Shown here piece by piece: positions 39,260-45,446 of a stretch of 64,000 nucleotides of DNA. Source of the stretch: Ramlibacter alkalitolerans (GTDB lineage Bacteria; Pseudomonadota; Gammaproteobacteria; Burkholderiales; Burkholderiaceae_C); assembly GCF_016722765.1 (NCBI RefSeq), contig NZ_JAEQND010000001.1, positions 186,001 to 250,000 of the forward strand, written 5' to 3'. A program made the position numbers and the translations under genes. Each line of letters begins with the position of its first letter. Positions within the stretch are counted from its first letter, which is position 1. A model generated the notes under the pieces. It was given only the letters and a program-made list of their open reading frames with translations. It ran no database searches and was not told the origin of the DNA.

Positions 39260-39547
39260 CTACCTGTCGTCCGCCGCGAACGACGGATAACCCGCTTCCT
39301 CCGTCGCCTTCGTCAGCGCCGCCACTGTCGTCTTCGCATCGTCGAAGGTCACCTTGGCATTGCGGCGCGCATAGCTCACCACCGCCTTGCTCACGCCCGG
39401 CACCTTCATCAGCGCGACGCGGATGGTGATCGGGCAGGTGTCGCAGTCCATGGTCGGCACGCTCAAGGTCACCTGGCGGGGTGCCGCGAGCGCCGGGCCG
39501 GCGGCGGCCAGGAGGCCGAGGGCCGCGGCGGCGAAGAACTTGTTCAT
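39260..39547 (-). CDS. merP: MerP-like periplasmic metal-binding protein
   Basis: 95 residues. A signal peptide (KFFAAAALGLLAAAGPALAA) is followed by a heavy-metal-associated domain with MDCDTCPITIRVAL (Cys35, Cys38). The Cys-x2-Cys loop followed by PIT matches MerP rather than copper chaperones. It would hand Hg2+ or another soft metal to MerT. It follows merT by 12 bases. No merR or merA is nearby. Confidence 0.83.
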   Translation of the reverse strand: MNKFFAAAALGLLAAAGPALAAPRQVTLSVPTMDCDTCPITIRVALMKVPGVSKAVVSYARRNAKVTFDDAKTTVAALTKATEEAGYPSFAADDR

Positions 39548-39559
39548 GTCAGCACTTCC

Positions 39560-39952
39560 TCAATAGAACAGCGGCGCGGCGAGCGGCACCAGCAGGGGAA
39601 TCAGCGTGAGCACCGCCACCAGCCAGAACCAGCGCCGCGCGGTGGAACCGACGCGGCGGCAGGCCGCGGGATCGCGGGTATCGCAGGCCGCATCGGCCGC
39701 GGGACGGTACAGGCGCCAGCCCGCCGTGCCCAGCGCGGCGAGTGCCAGCGCGGACAGCACGCCGGACCACGGCTCCAGCACCCGCAACTGGCCGATCCAG
39801 GCGCCGGAGATGCCGACGATCGCGAACACCAGCGGCACCACGCAGCAGGCCGAAGAAAGCAGCGCGGCGATGCCGGCCAGCGTCAGGGCCGCGGGCGCGC
39901 TGCCGGTGAGGGGAGAGGGCTGCTGCGGGCCCGGTCCGGAGGACGTCTGCAT
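39560..39952 (-). CDS. merT: MerT-like mercuric transport membrane protein
   Basis: 130 residues with three predicted helices. The vicinal Cys36-Cys37 pair in LLSSACCVVPLVF (first helix) is the MerT hallmark, and a second Cys pair (AACDTRDPAACRR) lies in the cytoplasmic loop. ATG 39952 begins a short polar tail before the first helix. It passes metal from MerP into the cytosol, where a reductase would be needed; none is in this window. Ten bases separate it from the upstream transglutaminase-like gene. Confidence 0.82.
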   Translation of the reverse strand: MQTSSGPGPQQPSPLTGSAPAALTLAGIAALLSSACCVVPLVFAIVGISGAWIGQLRVLEPWSGVLSALALAALGTAGWRLYRPAADAACDTRDPAACRRVGSTARRWFWLVAVLTLIPLLVPLAAPLFY

Positions 39953-39962
39953 CGTCGGACGT

Positions 39963-41078
39963 TCAGGCCGTGATCTCGCGCGCCGTGATCTGGTAGGCGA
40001 AGCTGTCCGGCTCGTACGGATCGCGCGCACCGGCGGCCGTCTCGGCCTGCGGGTACATGAAGAAGCCGAGCTTGCCCTGCCTGGCTCCCGGCAGCTTGAC
40101 GTCGCTGGCCGTGTTGTAGCCCATCCAGTTGCCCTCCCAGCTGCCGAACAGCGCCTTGCGCACCGGCGTGACGACGGGATGTCCGGGATCCTTGATCCAC
40201 TCCGCGGTTTCCTGGCGCATCACCTTGGTGACGTCCGCGGGGTCCATGGCCACCCAGCCATGCGCCTTCAGGTACACCTCGGCGCGGCAATGCTGCGCGC
40301 CCTTGAGGCTGGCCGGGTTGGCCCCGAGCTCGCGGTAATTGAAGGCGCTGGGCACCAGCCGCACGCCATAGATGTCGCGGGCCGGGACGCCGGCGGCGCG
40401 GCACAGCCCGACGAACAGCGCGTTGATGTCGGCGCACTTGCCGCTCAGGTTGCCGCTCTCCAGCATCGCCTTGATGTCGCCGGCGCCGCAGCCGCGCACC
40501 TTGGGCTCGCGGTAGCTGCTGACGATCACCCAGTCGTAGATGCGCTGCACCTTCTCGCGGTCGTCGCGCGCGCCGAGCACGATCTGCTTCGCCACCTTGC
40601 GCACGATGCCATCGGTGGTGATCAGTTCGCTCGGGGCGAGCCAGTGCCGCAGGTCCGCCGGATCGGCAGGCTGCGCGTTGGCGGGCTGCTTCCAGTCGAC
40701 GCCGCGGTTCTGCGTCTCCACGCGGTTGGTCAGCACGATGCGCGGCTCCGGCGTGCCGCCTTCGAAGCGCGCCACCAGCACCTTGGCGCCGGTGGCGCCG
40801 TCGGAGGCGAGCCGCACGTTGCTGGCGTTGCCGGTCCAGCTGATGTCCGAGGTGCGCTGCCAGGGCGTCTCCAGCGAGGGCACCGGCAGCCAGAGGTCGG
40901 CCGCGCCGGCGGCGTCGCGCAGCGTCACCGTCGTGGTCACCTCGAAGCTGCGCCAGCCGGCCGGACGGGGTTCGAAGCGGCGCGCTGCCTCCTGGGCGTG
41001 CACCAGCGGGCCGCTGCCCACGGCCAGCGCGGCGGACGCGGTCTTGACGAAATCGCGACGCGAGAGTTGAACGGTCAT
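39963..41078 (-). CDS. Tat-exported transglutaminase-like protein
   Basis: 371 residues. A Tat signal, SRRDFVKTASAALAVGSG, directs export of a folded protein. The transglutaminase/protease-like core has the catalytic Cys in SGKCADINALFVGLCRAAGVPAR, the His in CRAEVYLKAHGWVAMDPAD and a following Asp. An N-terminal beta domain (SFEVTTTVTL) precedes it. ATG 41078 is used because it starts the Tat motif. It may be a peptidase or amidase acting in the periplasm. Possibly co-transcribed with merTP. Confidence 0.82.
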   Translation of the reverse strand: MTVQLSRRDFVKTASAALAVGSGPLVHAQEAARRFEPRPAGWRSFEVTTTVTLRDAAGAADLWLPVPSLETPWQRTSDISWTGNASNVRLASDGATGAKVLVARFEGGTPEPRIVLTNRVETQNRGVDWKQPANAQPADPADLRHWLAPSELITTDGIVRKVAKQIVLGARDDREKVQRIYDWVIVSSYREPKVRGCGAGDIKAMLESGNLSGKCADINALFVGLCRAAGVPARDIYGVRLVPSAFNYRELGANPASLKGAQHCRAEVYLKAHGWVAMDPADVTKVMRQETAEWIKDPGHPVVTPVRKALFGSWEGNWMGYNTASDVKLPGARQGKLGFFMYPQAETAAGARDPYEPDSFAYQITAREITA

Positions 41079-41114
41079 GGCAGCTTCCGGTGGATGGAGA
41101 AAATGCGAACGGGC

Positions 41115-41137
41115 ACAGCCCGGCAAGGCCGGGCTGT
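41115..41137 (-). terminator. Hairpin downstream of senA
   Basis: ACAGCCCGGC-AAG-GCCGGGCTGT, a 10-bp perfect stem 61 bases beyond the senA stop and ahead of the transglutaminase-like gene on the same strand. Only a short T-stretch follows at a distance, so it is a moderate terminator candidate. Confidence 0.5.
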
Positions 41138-41197
41138 CGAAGCGGGCCAAGTATAGGGCGATGTCACAGCCCTTTCAGCGGCTCGGGAACTGGCGTT

Positions 41198-42436
41198 TCA
41201 GGCGCTGCGCACGCTGCGGAAGCCGGCCAGGATGTCGCGCCGGTGCGGCTCGTAGAAGTTGCGGTAGCGGGCATGCGCCAGCAGGGGCGCGGTGGCGGCG
41301 GAGGCCCCCCGCAGCACGCGCCGGCTGCCGAACCAGGGCTGCGAATAGTCCCGGTAGGGATGCGGCGCGAAGCCCGGATAGGGTTCGAAGCAGCTCGCCG
41401 TCCATTCCCAGGCCTGGCCCCAGCGGAAGCGCGGCTGGGTCAGGGCGGCGCACTCCCATTCGGCTTCGGTGGGCAGGCGGCGCCCGGCCCAGCGGCACCA
41501 GGCCTCCGCTTCGTGGGCGTTCAGGTGCAGGGCCACCTGCTGCGGCTGCAGGGCGTGCCAGGCGCCGTGGCGCATCTGCTCCCAGCCTGCCGCGCCGCGA
41601 TGCAGGCCGGCGGGCCGGCGCTGGCGCAGCGAGGCAAGCCAGGCCAGGCCCTCGGGCGTCCACCATTGCGCGGTCTCATAGCCACCCGCCTCCACGAAAG
41701 GCAGGAAGGCGCCCCAGGTGACCGGCGCGGCATCGATGGCGTAGCGCGGCAGCTCCACTTCGTGCGCGGGCAGTTCGTTGTCGAAGGCGAAGCCGGCGCA
41801 GCTCGTGCCCAGCCCGAAACGCAGCGGTCCCACCGTCAACTGCGCCGCCTCCTGCACCTGGGCCGGCTCGACGTTCTCGCGCACCGGGATGCCCAGGCTC
41901 TGCGCCATGGCGACCGCGGCCTCGGCGTGCATCTGCTCGTGCACCGCGGCCAGCCGGAAGAAATACAGGCCCGGGTCGTCGGGAGCATCGAGCGCATCGA
42001 GCAGGTGCAGCGTGCGCTCCAGCGAATGGGCCAGGTAGCCCTGCGTGCGAGCGGCATCGGGCAGCGGCAACTCCCAGCGGGTGCGGTGGGGAACGCGGCT
42101 GGAGTCGTACCAGCGGTCGGCCTCGGCCAGCAGGGAGGGCGGACGGGCCGTGTGCGGATCGGCGCGGATCCCCAGGTGGCGCTGCGGGTTGCGCGCGATC
42201 CACCATTCCTGGAACCAGCCGATGTGCCCCAGCTCCCACAGCGGCGGATTCAGTTCGGCGGCGTAGGGAATGTGCGGCGCAGGGCCGAGGGCCTCGCGGA
42301 AGTCCTCCGCCAGCCGCAGCGTGCGCTCGCGCGCGGCCAGCAGGGCCGAACGCACGGCGGCAGGGGGGCCTTGGCGCAGCGCCAGCGCCTCGGTGGCCGC
42401 CGCCACGCTATAACCGTCGGATGTCCCGTGCCGCAT
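41198..42436 (-). CDS. senA: EgtB-like selenoneine synthase SenA
   Basis: 412 residues, two domains. The N-terminal DinB-like domain holds a non-heme iron triad, His71 (LWELGHIGWF) and His166/His170 in HEQMHAE. The C-terminal formylglycine-generating-enzyme/sulfatase-like domain has GRRLPTEAEWECAAL, WEWTASCFEPYPGF and RRVLRGASAATAP. This is EgtB architecture. The head-to-head neighbours (a selenosugar-synthase-like glycosyltransferase and a SelD-like protein) make it SenA, which joins a selenosugar to hercynine using O2. Two starts are possible: ATG 42436, overlapping senB by 16 bases, or GTG 42406. Without the neighbours it would be called EgtB. Confidence 0.88.
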   Translation of the reverse strand: MRHGTSDGYSVAAATEALALRQGPPAAVRSALLAARERTLRLAEDFREALGPAPHIPYAAELNPPLWELGHIGWFQEWWIARNPQRHLGIRADPHTARPPSLLAEADRWYDSSRVPHRTRWELPLPDAARTQGYLAHSLERTLHLLDALDAPDDPGLYFFRLAAVHEQMHAEAAVAMAQSLGIPVRENVEPAQVQEAAQLTVGPLRFGLGTSCAGFAFDNELPAHEVELPRYAIDAAPVTWGAFLPFVEAGGYETAQWWTPEGLAWLASLRQRRPAGLHRGAAGWEQMRHGAWHALQPQQVALHLNAHEAEAWCRWAGRRLPTEAEWECAALTQPRFRWGQAWEWTASCFEPYPGFAPHPYRDYSQPWFGSRRVLRGASAATAPLLAHARYRNFYEPHRRDILAGFRSVRSA

Positions 42437-43419
42437 CGGTCGTCATCGTAAGCCCCGCCCTCGCCGACGCCAACAACGGCAACTGGCGCACCGCCCGCCG
42501 GTGGCAGGAACTGCTGGCCGGCGCGCACCCGGTGCGCATCACGAAGGAATGGCCGGACGCGGACGCAGCCGCCGATGCGGTGATGCTGGCCCTGCATGCG
42601 CGCCGCTCGGCCGCGCCGATCGCGGCCTGGGCCCAGGCGCATCCCGGCCACGGCCTGGCCGTCATCCTGACCGGCACCGACCTGTACCAGGACATCCAGA
42701 CCGAGGCCGCCGCCCAGCGCTCGCTGGAGCTGGCGCAGCGGCTGGTGGTGCTGCAGGAGTGCGGCCCCGAGGCCTTGCCGGTGTGGCTGCGTGGCAAGGC
42801 GCGCGTGATCTGCCAGTCCAGCCCCGCCCTGCCCCCGCTGCCCCGCGATGCCGGGCAGCTCACCGCCGTCATGGTGGGTCACCTGCGGCAGGTGAAGTCG
42901 CCGCAGACGCTGTTCGCCGCCGCGCGCCTGCTGTGCCAGCGCAGCGACATCCGCATCCGCCACATCGGCGACGGCAGCGGGGAGCCCGTGCTCGCCGACG
43001 AGGCCCGCGCCACCCGGCGCGACTGCCCCAACTACGAATGGCTGGGCGCGCTGCCGCATCCGGAAACGCTCGAGGAGATCCGCCGCGCCGACGTGCTGGT
43101 GCACACCAGCGCCCTCGAAGGCGGCGCCCACGTGATCCTGGAAGCGGTGCGCTGCGGCACGCCGGTCCTGGCAAGTCGCGTGCCGGGCAACGTCGGCATG
43201 CTGGGGCGCGACTACGAAGGCTACTTCCCGCACGGCGACGCCGGCATGCTGGCCGAGCTGCTGCTCGCGGGCCGGGCCGGGCAGCAGGCCGAAAACCCCG
43301 CGGTCCACCTGCTGGGTCGGCTGGCCGCACAATGCGCCCTGCGCGCGCCGCTGTTCGATGCGGCCGCGGAGCGCAGCGCGCTCCTGAACCTCCTGCAAGA
43401 ACTGGAATCCGCCCGATGA
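42421..43419 (+). CDS. senB: Selenosugar synthase SenB (glycosyltransferase fold)
   Basis: 332 residues, GT-B type. N-terminal ASVVIVSPALADANNGNWRT, a C-terminal nucleotide-sugar site MVGHLRQVKSPQTLFAAARL, EWLGALPHPETLEEIRRADV and the EGGAHVILEAVRCGTPVLAS motif. In the known pathway SenB joins selenophosphate to a UDP-sugar to give a selenosugar. ATG 42421 starts the conserved strand. There is no ribosome site, but TATAAC at 42409-42414 ends 6 bases before it, so the mRNA may be leaderless. The stop overlaps senC (ATGA). Confidence 0.88.
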   Translation: MSRAASVVIVSPALADANNGNWRTARRWQELLAGAHPVRITKEWPDADAAADAVMLALHARRSAAPIAAWAQAHPGHGLAVILTGTDLYQDIQTEAAAQRSLELAQRLVVLQECGPEALPVWLRGKARVICQSSPALPPLPRDAGQLTAVMVGHLRQVKSPQTLFAAARLLCQRSDIRIRHIGDGSGEPVLADEARATRRDCPNYEWLGALPHPETLEEIRRADVLVHTSALEGGAHVILEAVRCGTPVLASRVPGNVGMLGRDYEGYFPHGDAGMLAELLLAGRAGQQAENPAVHLLGRLAAQCALRAPLFDAAAERSALLNLLQELESAR

Positions 43420-44480
43420 ACGCTCCCCTGCCCACTGCCGAACCCCGCCTCACCTCGCTGTCGCACGGTGGCGGCTGCGGCTGCAAGATCGCGCCCGGCG
43501 TGCTGTCCGAAATCCTCAAGGGCACGGCGCGGCTGCCGGTGCCGCCGGAGCTGCTGGTGGGCATCGAGACGGCCGACGACGCCGCCGTCTACAAGCTCAA
43601 CGAGGAACAGGCGCTGATCGCCACGACGGACTTCTTCATGCCGATCGTGGACGATCCGTTCGACTTCGGCCGCATCGCGGCCACCAACGCCATCTCCGAC
43701 GTCTATGCGATGGGCGGCAAGCCGATCATGGCGCTGGCGCTGGTGGGCATGCCGATCAGCGTGCTGTCCACCGCCACCATCGGGCGCATCCTGGAAGGCG
43801 GCGAGTCGGTCTGCAAGGCGGCCGGCATCCCGATCGCGGGCGGCCACACCATCGATTCCGTCGAGCCGATCTACGGCCTGGTGGCGCTGGGGCTGGTGCA
43901 TCCGCAGCGCGTGAAGCGCAACGCCGACGCGCGTGCCGGCGACGTGCTGGTGCTGGGCAAGCCGCTGGGCGTGGGCGTGCTGTCGGCCGCGCTGAAGAAG
44001 GAGAAGCTCGATGCCGCCGGCTACGAGCGGATGATCTCCACCACCACCCGCCTGAACACGCCCGGCCCCGAACTCGCCGCCATCGAAGGCGTGCATGCGC
44101 TGACGGACGTCACCGGCTTCGGCCTGGCGGGGCATGGCCTGGAACTGGCGCGCGGTGCCGATCTCTCGATCGAGATCGAGTGGAGCAAGGTGCCGGTGCT
44201 GCAGGGCGTGCGCGAACTGGCGCAGGCGGGGTTCGTCACCGGCGCGTCGGGGCGCAACTGGATCGGCTATGGCGCGGATGTCGCGCTGCCCGCCGGCTTC
44301 GGCGAAGCGGAGCAGGCGCTGCTGACGGATCCGCAGACGAGCGGCGGGCTGCTGGTGTCGTGCACGCCCGAGAGCGTGGGCGAGGTGATCGACGTGTTCC
44401 GCAAGCACGGCTTCGGGCAGGCCGCGGTGATCGGGCAGGCCCGGGCAGCGAGCGCGGGGGCGCGGCTGGTGGTGCGTTGA
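43416..44480 (+). CDS. senC: Selenide, water dikinase (SelD/SenC)
   Basis: 354 residues. The N-terminal SHGGGCGCKIAPGVL carries the catalytic Cys and Lys; it is Cys, not selenocysteine. ATP/Mg sites are GIETADDAAVYKLN, DVYAMGGKPIMALAL, AGGHTIDSVEPIYGL and the C-terminal LLTDPQTSGGLLVSC. It makes selenophosphate from selenide and ATP. ATGA coupling to senB indicates it supplies SenB directly, and it may also serve as the general SelD if no other copy exists. A good terminator and REP pair follow. Confidence 0.92.
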   Translation: MNAPLPTAEPRLTSLSHGGGCGCKIAPGVLSEILKGTARLPVPPELLVGIETADDAAVYKLNEEQALIATTDFFMPIVDDPFDFGRIAATNAISDVYAMGGKPIMALALVGMPISVLSTATIGRILEGGESVCKAAGIPIAGGHTIDSVEPIYGLVALGLVHPQRVKRNADARAGDVLVLGKPLGVGVLSAALKKEKLDAAGYERMISTTTRLNTPGPELAAIEGVHALTDVTGFGLAGHGLELARGADLSIEIEWSKVPVLQGVRELAQAGFVTGASGRNWIGYGADVALPAGFGEAEQALLTDPQTSGGLLVSCTPESVGEVIDVFRKHGFGQAAVIGQARAASAGARLVVR

Positions 44481-44530
44481 GGAAAGTGGTTGGGGCGATG
44501 CCGTTGCGGCGACAGCCGTTGGGCGGAAGC

Positions 44531-44624
44531 CGTCATCCCCGCGCAGGCGGGGACCCAGGGAGCGCCGCATTGCGGCGCCTTTCTTTTTGAACGCCCTGGA
44601 TTCCCGCCTTCGCGGGAATGACGG
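44531..44624. repeat. REP-like inverted pair after senC
   Basis: 44531-44560 (CGTCATCCCCGCGCAGGCGG, ending ACCCAGGG) and 44594-44624 (CCCTGGATTCCCGCCTTCGC, ending ATGACGG) are inverted copies of one unit with a small terminator hairpin between them. The same unit occurs in paaD, at 53321 and at 58501. Confidence 0.85.
44562..44588 (+). terminator. Rho-independent terminator of senBC
   Basis: Stem GCGCCGC-ATT-GCGGCGC (44562-44578) followed by CTTTCTTTTT on the plus strand. This is the clearest intrinsic terminator in the window, 82 bases after the senC stop. Confidence 0.8.
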
Positions 44625-44648
44625 ACGGGGCGGCCGTCGAACGCGGGA

Positions 44649-45446
44649 CTAGCGAAACACCGGCGCCCGCTTCTCCATCTGCGCCTGCACCGCTTCCCGC
44701 TGGTTCGCGCTGCCGATCAGGCGCTGCTGCTCGAAGGCCTCCGCCACCAGCACGCGTGCCGCATCGACCGGCGTGGCGGTGTTGAACAGACGCTTGGCCG
44801 CGCGCACCGCATCGGGATTGCTGTTGGCGATCTGCCGCGCCATCGCCCGCGCATCGGCCAACGGATCCTCGCTCGCCCGCGTCGCGAGCCCGAGCGCCAC
44901 GGCTTCGATCCCGGACACCACCCGCCCGGTGAACGTCAGCTCCCGCGCCACGTCGCCGCGGCACAACTGCGTCAGCAGCACGCAGCCGGCCATGTCCGGC
45001 ACCAGGCCCCACCTGACTTCCATCACCGAGAGCTGCGCCTCGCGATGCACGCAGCGCACGTCGGCGCCCAGCGCGATCTGCAGGCCGCCGCCGAAGGCCA
45101 CGCCATGCACTGCCGCGATCACCGGCACCGGCAGTTCGCGCCAGCCCCAGGCGACCTGCTGCCAGAAGTTGGCGAGGCCATGCGTGCGCACCACCAGGTC
45201 GCCGATGCCCGATGCCGGATCGGCGAGGCCCTGCAGGCTGGCCTTGTCGAGGCCGGCGCAGAACGCCCGGCCCTCGCCATGCAGCACCACGGCGCGAATC
45301 TTCGGGTCGGCACGTACGCGCGCGATCGCATCGATCAGCGCCTCGAACATCGCGGTGTCCAGCGCGTTCATCTTGTCGGGGCGCGCAAGCGCCACCTCGG
45401 CCACACCGTGGCCGTCCACCTCCACCCGCACGCGCTGGTCGTCCAT
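44649..45446 (-). CDS. Enoyl-CoA hydratase/isomerase (crotonase) family protein
   Basis: 265 residues. Crotonase marks: LARPDKMNALDTAMFEALID, GRAFCAGLDKASL (oxyanion hole), AVHGVAFGGGLQIALGADVR (second oxyanion Gly) and the region MEVRWGLVPDMAG, where the usual catalytic Glu of hydratases is replaced by a Asp-Met-Ala context, so the reaction is uncertain. ATG 45446 has GGGAG upstream. Isolated gene, divergent from the second Liv operon. Confidence 0.83.
   Translation of the reverse strand: MDDQRVRVEVDGHGVAEVALARPDKMNALDTAMFEALIDAIARVRADPKIRAVVLHGEGRAFCAGLDKASLQGLADPASGIGDLVVRTHGLANFWQQVAWGWRELPVPVIAAVHGVAFGGGLQIALGADVRCVHREAQLSVMEVRWGLVPDMAGCVLLTQLCRGDVARELTFTGRVVSGIEAVALGLATRASEDPLADARAMARQIANSNPDAVRAAKRLFNTATPVDAARVLVAEAFEQQRLIGSANQREAVQAQMEKRAPVFR

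Follow-up and report, generated by a model that had tools for sequence, protein, structure and literature searches.

A Variovorax-type selenoneine biosynthesis locus in Ramlibacter alkalitolerans and a proposed pair of facing promoters at its senA-senB junction

We analysed a 64,000-nucleotide (nt) stretch of Ramlibacter alkalitolerans DNA (assembly GCF_016722765.1, contig NZ_JAEQND010000001.1, positions 186,001 to 250,000; referred to here as the window), in which three adjoining genes, senA, senB and senC, almost certainly constitute a locus for selenoneine biosynthesis like that of Variovorax paradoxus. This reading had been put forward in an initial annotation made from the letters alone, and it was borne out: all three genes exceeded the cut-offs of curated equivalog models, and SenA and SenB aligned along almost their full lengths with selenoneine enzymes of known structure. 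The genes, with the evidence by which each was called, are as follows.

41198-42436, minus strand: senA, predicted selenoneine synthase (EgtB/FGE-sulfatase fold), 412 amino acids; NF041186, PDB, tree and residues
42421-43419, plus strand: senB, predicted selenosugar synthase (GT-B glycosyltransferase), 332 amino acids; TIGR04348, PDB and residues
43416-44480, plus strand: senC (selD), predicted selenophosphate synthetase, cysteine form, 354 amino acids; NF002098 and PDB 3u0o

An open reading frame (ORF) check returned the same coordinates and frames as the initial annotation, together with the head-to-head arrangement of senA and senB and the coupling of senB to senC through ATGA at 43416-43419, which is common to the stop of the former and the start of the latter. 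The annotated starts of senA and senB moreover overlap by 16 bp (42421-42436), a point absent from that annotation.

SenA scored 507.6 bits against the NCBIfam SenA model NF041186 (cut-off 420), whereas its 247.8 bits against the EgtB model TIGR03440 fell short of the cut-off of 360. Its best matches in PDB were the selenoneine synthase SenA entries 8k5i and 8ryz (E about 2e-166), with the selenoxide synthase OvsA as a weaker match (E 1e-43). SenC passed the SelD model NF002098 with 543.2 bits (cut-off 299), matched SelD 3u0o in PDB, and carries the motif HGGGCGCK, whose cysteine we take to be catalytic. SenB passed TIGR04348 with 408.1 bits (cut-off 300), matched 8jjq, 8fbx and 8k5u, and retains N21, T24, K159 and E233 within the motifs NGNWRT, RQVKSP and EGGAHV. 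Their counterparts in V. paradoxus SenB, N20, T23, K158 and E231, have been probed by mutation (PMC10891094).

In the published pathway, SenC generates selenophosphate, SenB produces a selenosugar, and SenA attaches this sugar to hercynine before selenoneine is released (PMC9814287; PMC10903977; PMC10891094). If the R. alkalitolerans proteins catalyse the reactions of the published enzymes, SenC would convert selenide and ATP to selenophosphate; SenB would place selenium onto a uridine diphosphate (UDP)-sugar, probably UDP-N-acetylglucosamine (UDP-GlcNAc), with cleavage of the Se-P bond yielding the selenosugar; SenA, as an O2-using iron enzyme, would couple that selenosugar to hercynine; and breakdown of the selenoxide would give selenoneine. 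Hercynine would be supplied by EgtD, whose gene adjoins egtB on a separate contig, and SenC, the sole SelD found, would also have to feed MnmH.

The sen cluster of V. paradoxus DSM 30034 is described as having the same three genes, with senA head-to-head with senB and then selD (Kayrouz et al. 2022, via PMC9814287, PMC10891094 and PMC10903977). The locus of V. paradoxus NBRC 15149 shares this layout, its proteins being 65% (SenA), 69% (SenB) and 83% (SenC) identical to those of the window; its senA/senB 5′ overlap is 13 bp rather than 16 bp, and it otherwise differs by sequence divergence only. Within Ramlibacter, window SenB matched RsSenB of a different strain (PDB 8K5U) with an E value of 1.6e-123, and RsSenB is reported to be active and located in a selenoneine-related cluster (PMC10891094). 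Since both the pathway and the assay of a Ramlibacter SenB are already in the literature, we regard the locus as known biology in a new genome, to which the start architecture and a SenA-like paralogue on contig C30 are the details added here. R. alkalitolerans thereby becomes a well-supported candidate selenoneine producer with a genome context: one selD for both selenoneine and the selenouridine of tRNA, no indication of a selenocysteine system, and a hercynine supply common with ergothioneine.

To place SenA among its homologues, we aligned 134 family proteins, including 80 SenA rows (the window protein and its near relatives among them) and 33 EgtB rows. The iron triad His71, His166 and His170, which the initial annotation had picked out, is present in window SenA and conserved in 80/80 SenA rows. 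At 17 positions one letter is found in at least 79 of the 80 SenA rows and another in 33/33 EgtB rows (for example N63 versus S, E68 versus H, S365 versus N and W368 versus F), and the window protein is SenA-type at all 17. It deviates at only one, A342, of the 109 positions conserved in at least 75 of the 80 SenA rows. In a quick tree of all 134 rows, the branch between SenA and EgtB was long and had full support. A careful tree, built from 64 of the rows, supported the split at 100/100; in it, window SenA grouped with R. monticola SenA (100/99, 77% identity) within a ten-row clade that also holds the V. paradoxus protein (100/98). The tree placement, which had been set beforehand as the result that could overturn the reading, thus put SenA far from the compared EgtB proteins and near that of V. 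paradoxus.

The linkage of the genes was assessed in the best 80 of 190 SenA-like relatives among genome contigs. SenB was present in 64 of the 80 loci and stood head-to-head with SenA in 64/64, and 55 of these 64 also gave a SelD match, at 70% identity or more in 52 of the 55. It is very improbable, on this evidence, that SenA is an ordinary ergothioneine sulfoxide synthase with the glycosyltransferase and SelD as chance neighbours: superfamily and iron triad are indeed the same, but the EgtB cut-off was failed, the long 100/100 branch intervenes, an egtB above its cut-off already lies beside egtD in the genome, and the senA-senB linkage recurs across relatives. On score, tree and residues we reject an ordinary EgtB identity. 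As a separate observation, the SelD-like match in three loci (L074, L082 and L087) is 33-36% identical, compared with 73-94% elsewhere, and lies about 1.2 kb past senB; these genes may be divergent selD or another AIRS-family gene.

We further examined co-occurrence in 150 genomes of the family, each at least 90% complete, in which SenA exceeded its cut-off in 52-53 genomes, SenB in 52, EgtD in 101 and SelA in 41. SenA and SenB occurred together in 43 genomes, SenA alone in 9, SenB alone in 9 and neither in 89 (Fisher p 8e-20, uncorrected for relatedness), and 48 of the 52 SenB-bearing genomes had some EgtD match. Among the nine SenB-only genomes, three (G017, G134 and G140) encode a sub-cut-off SenA-like protein within 1.5 kb of senB; in the other six, no SenA exceeds the cut-off and the fetched stretch shows none next to senB. 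One of these six (G096) has a 343-bit SenA-model match elsewhere, beside its own egtD.

These six of 52 SenB-bearing genomes suggest that selenosugars may have other uses, and would accord with a locus product other than selenoneine, for example a different conjugate of a selenosugar or a compound resembling ovoselenol. The same may be said of SenB, which prefers UDP-GlcNAc and accepts several UDP-sugars (PMC10891094), and of the OvsA match in PDB. We nevertheless consider such a product highly unlikely here, since the V. paradoxus selenoneine synthase structures match SenA far better than OvsA does, SenA groups with the V. paradoxus protein, and the hercynine-forming EgtD is encoded. In four genomes, two of them of one genus, that lack any egtD match and any senA above the cut-off, senB and selD were seen together (loci L133, L134, L135 and L136 of G034, G145, G123 and G019), G123 being fragmented with the locus on a 5.5 kb contig; their selenosugar may have another use.

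Selenoneine synthesis would require hercynine, for which the initial annotation had looked outside the window. In the assembly (5.71 Mb, 33 contigs, 100% estimated completeness), the window lies on contig C1, and the single egtD match lies on C12 (406.8 bits, cut-off 290.9), adjoining an egtB above its cut-off; the single mnmH match lies on C28 (492.6 bits). Neither egtD nor mnmH is therefore in the window, in agreement with the initial annotation. Since egtD is encoded at the ergothioneine locus, hercynine would be available to the sen pathway, and since egtD is remote from senA, selenoneine and ergothioneine probably draw on one hercynine precursor pool. The sole selD above the cut-off in the genome is senC of this locus. 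Of the other potential selD users that the initial annotation had named, mnmH was thus found, selA gave no match in the genome search, and no selB exceeded the cut-off (best 118.5 versus 242.25); no tRNA-Sec reached the gathering score, the top one among 16 tRNA-like matches scoring 45.6 versus 47. On these searches, in which 150 of 1015 tRNA-Sec candidates were scored, a selenocysteine use of selD was rejected, and among the known users tested, selenophosphate is predicted here to serve the sen pathway and selenouridine. A genome lacking any hercynine source, with selD tied only to selenocysteine, had been named as the finding contrary to a selenoneine locus; with egtD present, selA unmatched and selB below its cut-off, R. 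alkalitolerans does not show this pattern. Least probable of all is a selD that mainly serves MnmH in tRNA selenouridine formation beside silent, remnant senA and senB genes. The presence of mnmH and of a single over-cut-off selD could be cited for it; against it, selD is ATGA-coupled to senB, mnmH lies on a different contig, and both senA and senB remain open from end to end with conserved catalytic residues. A selD supplying both pathways fits a selenoneine locus.

Several points weigh against the assignment of the locus to selenoneine. The EgtB comparators in both trees come from Burkholderiales only; in 16 of the 80 SenA-like loci the fetched stretch contains no SenB, some of these loci being short contigs; and egtD does not adjoin senA in this genome, unlike in many relatives, where it adjoins sen genes (for example in G142, G082 and G009) and where SenA has EgtD within 1.5 kb in 45 of 134 rows, 39 of these 45 also with SenB. 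In addition, the NCBIfam SenA cut-off lacks full specificity, as the over-cut-off protein in all nine SenA-only genomes of the family is a member of a separate paralogue clade, with no SenB above the cut-off. Because such paralogue-only genomes pass, the SenA model score is insufficient on its own and has to be read together with tree position, residues and senB linkage.

R. alkalitolerans itself encodes a member of this clade. The third EgtB-type gene of the genome (C30:25034-26233; L099:6948-8240) scored 343 bits against the SenA model and 175 against the EgtB model, and its product fell in a 20-row clade, supported at 100/100 in the 64-row tree, that attaches near or within SenA. The clade thus shares the superfamily of SenA and stands apart from it, and half of its members lack the full triad: the triad of the C30 protein is broken (H-H-C), at least one iron histidine is lost in 10 of the 20 members, and all three are kept in the other 10, including the senB/senC-linked L086, L090 and L096. 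In several genomes the paralogue lies beside a LysR-type regulator with PF12727 (Pfam-checked in L099, L149, L158 and L160), beside DctQ/DctM genes of a tripartite ATP-independent periplasmic (TRAP) transporter (Pfam-checked in L099, L147 and L149), or beside selD (L143, L146, L149 and L150). The neighbours of the C30 gene are the LysR/PF12727 regulator, a TupB-like permease and DctQM, with selD not among them. A selenium-linked LysR subfamily has been described (PMC5322559). The clade serves as a warning that the label 'selenoneine synthase' needs a check of senB linkage or of the iron triad. The quick tree left a further long-branched SenA-family protein above the SenA cut-off (L155:5545-7311, genome G088) outside all the remaining SenA rows.

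Turning to the overlapping starts of senA and senB, we propose two -10 hexamers, each lying within the coding sequence of the partner gene.

42409-42414, plus strand: proposed senB -10 hexamer TATAAC, within senA, ending 6 nt before the senB ATG
42445-42450, minus strand: proposed senA -10 hexamer TACGAT, within senB codons 9-10, ending 8 nt before the senA ATG

Start contexts were compared by taking as the start the nearest in-frame ATG or GTG ahead of a conserved residue, and as -10-like any TAnnnT or TATAAn. In 39 of 76 distinct contexts the distance from the end of a -10-like hexamer to the senB start was exactly 6 nt, whereas every other distance from 0 to 39 nt was represented by at most 3 contexts; the remaining 37 of 76 have no hexamer at 6 nt, so that the trait is not universal. 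The spacing is thus constant across hexamers of differing letters, among them TATAAA, TAGGCT, TATAAC, TACGCT and TAACCT. The same gap of 6 was seen in 1/65 selD, 0/30 egtB and 0/52 egtD control contexts, and in 0/63 senA contexts under the same start rule. Conversely, a Shine-Dalgarno-like word preceded senB in 1 of 76 contexts, compared with 31/65 for selD, 15/30 for egtB and 14/52 for egtD. By the test of a -10 element at 6 nt without a Shine-Dalgarno word, senB bears the signature of a leaderless mRNA. A wider baseline, in which 10 of 700 ORFs had such a start, is weak, as the starts are uncurated and senB frames are possibly included. A TA-rich motif directly upstream has been reported for leaderless genes of Burkholderia cenocepacia (PMC4603805).

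On the senA side, TACGAT lies 8 nt before the ATG and inside the first ten senB codons in 12/12 Ramlibacter/Variovorax loci, the window included, and no Shine-Dalgarno-like word precedes senA in any of the 12. Of 102 SenA-type loci inspected, 12 have this spacing, and all 12 belong to one clade. In 12/12 loci the hexamer takes the valine codon GTA of senB, a codon used at 14 of 261 valines in these senB genes overall and at 2 of 249 outside that site; reciprocally, the TATAA of senB takes the tyrosine codon TAT of senA in 12/12, TAT accounting for 41/144 in those senA genes. The 5′ overlap of senA and senB is 16 bp in 5 of the loci and 13 bp in 7.

From these patterns we infer that two promoters, one for senA and one for senBC, face each other, each yielding a leaderless mRNA. 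A fuller model for Ramlibacter and Variovorax, to which we give roughly even odds, holds that the facing promoters, with their -10 elements in the partner's coding sequence, would produce leaderless mRNAs with 13-16 nt complementary 5′ ends, and that mutual exclusion would couple SenA and SenBC: two RNA polymerases would hardly fit both promoters at once, and the outputs would therefore be linked. Facing promoters are argued against by the lack of a -35 consensus in the 39 aligned senB contexts, by a sigma-70 pattern scan of 41000-44800 that matched neither proposed promoter, by the gap of 8 instead of 6 before senA, and by the relatedness of the 12 loci, which are not independent. We retain the promoter reading because spacing and codon choice are conserved. 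If it holds, mutual exclusion would provide a built-in balance between the making and the use of the selenosugar, and the conserved leaderless senB start would offer a testable handle on the control of selenoneine synthesis. No report joining a leaderless start with selenoneine was found in the open-access literature searched.

Elsewhere in the window, MerP-like and MerT-like genes lie near senA (39263-39952). A selenium-mercury link was considered and rejected, since among 81 loci (the 80 and L142) the mer pair recurs only in R. monticola (L019), plus L030 and L031, two loci with identical coordinates whose mer-like pair is 44-54% identical and lies on the opposite side of the locus. Downstream of senC, a pattern scan gave one further feature, which is weak in that 2 were found against a shuffle mean of 1.4.

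44562-44578, plus strand: terminator-like stem-loop with a T-rich tail, 3′ of senC

Directly 3′ of senC, an inverted repeat (44533-44625) was noticed by eye, with the look of a dispersed element of the repetitive extragenic palindromic (REP) type.

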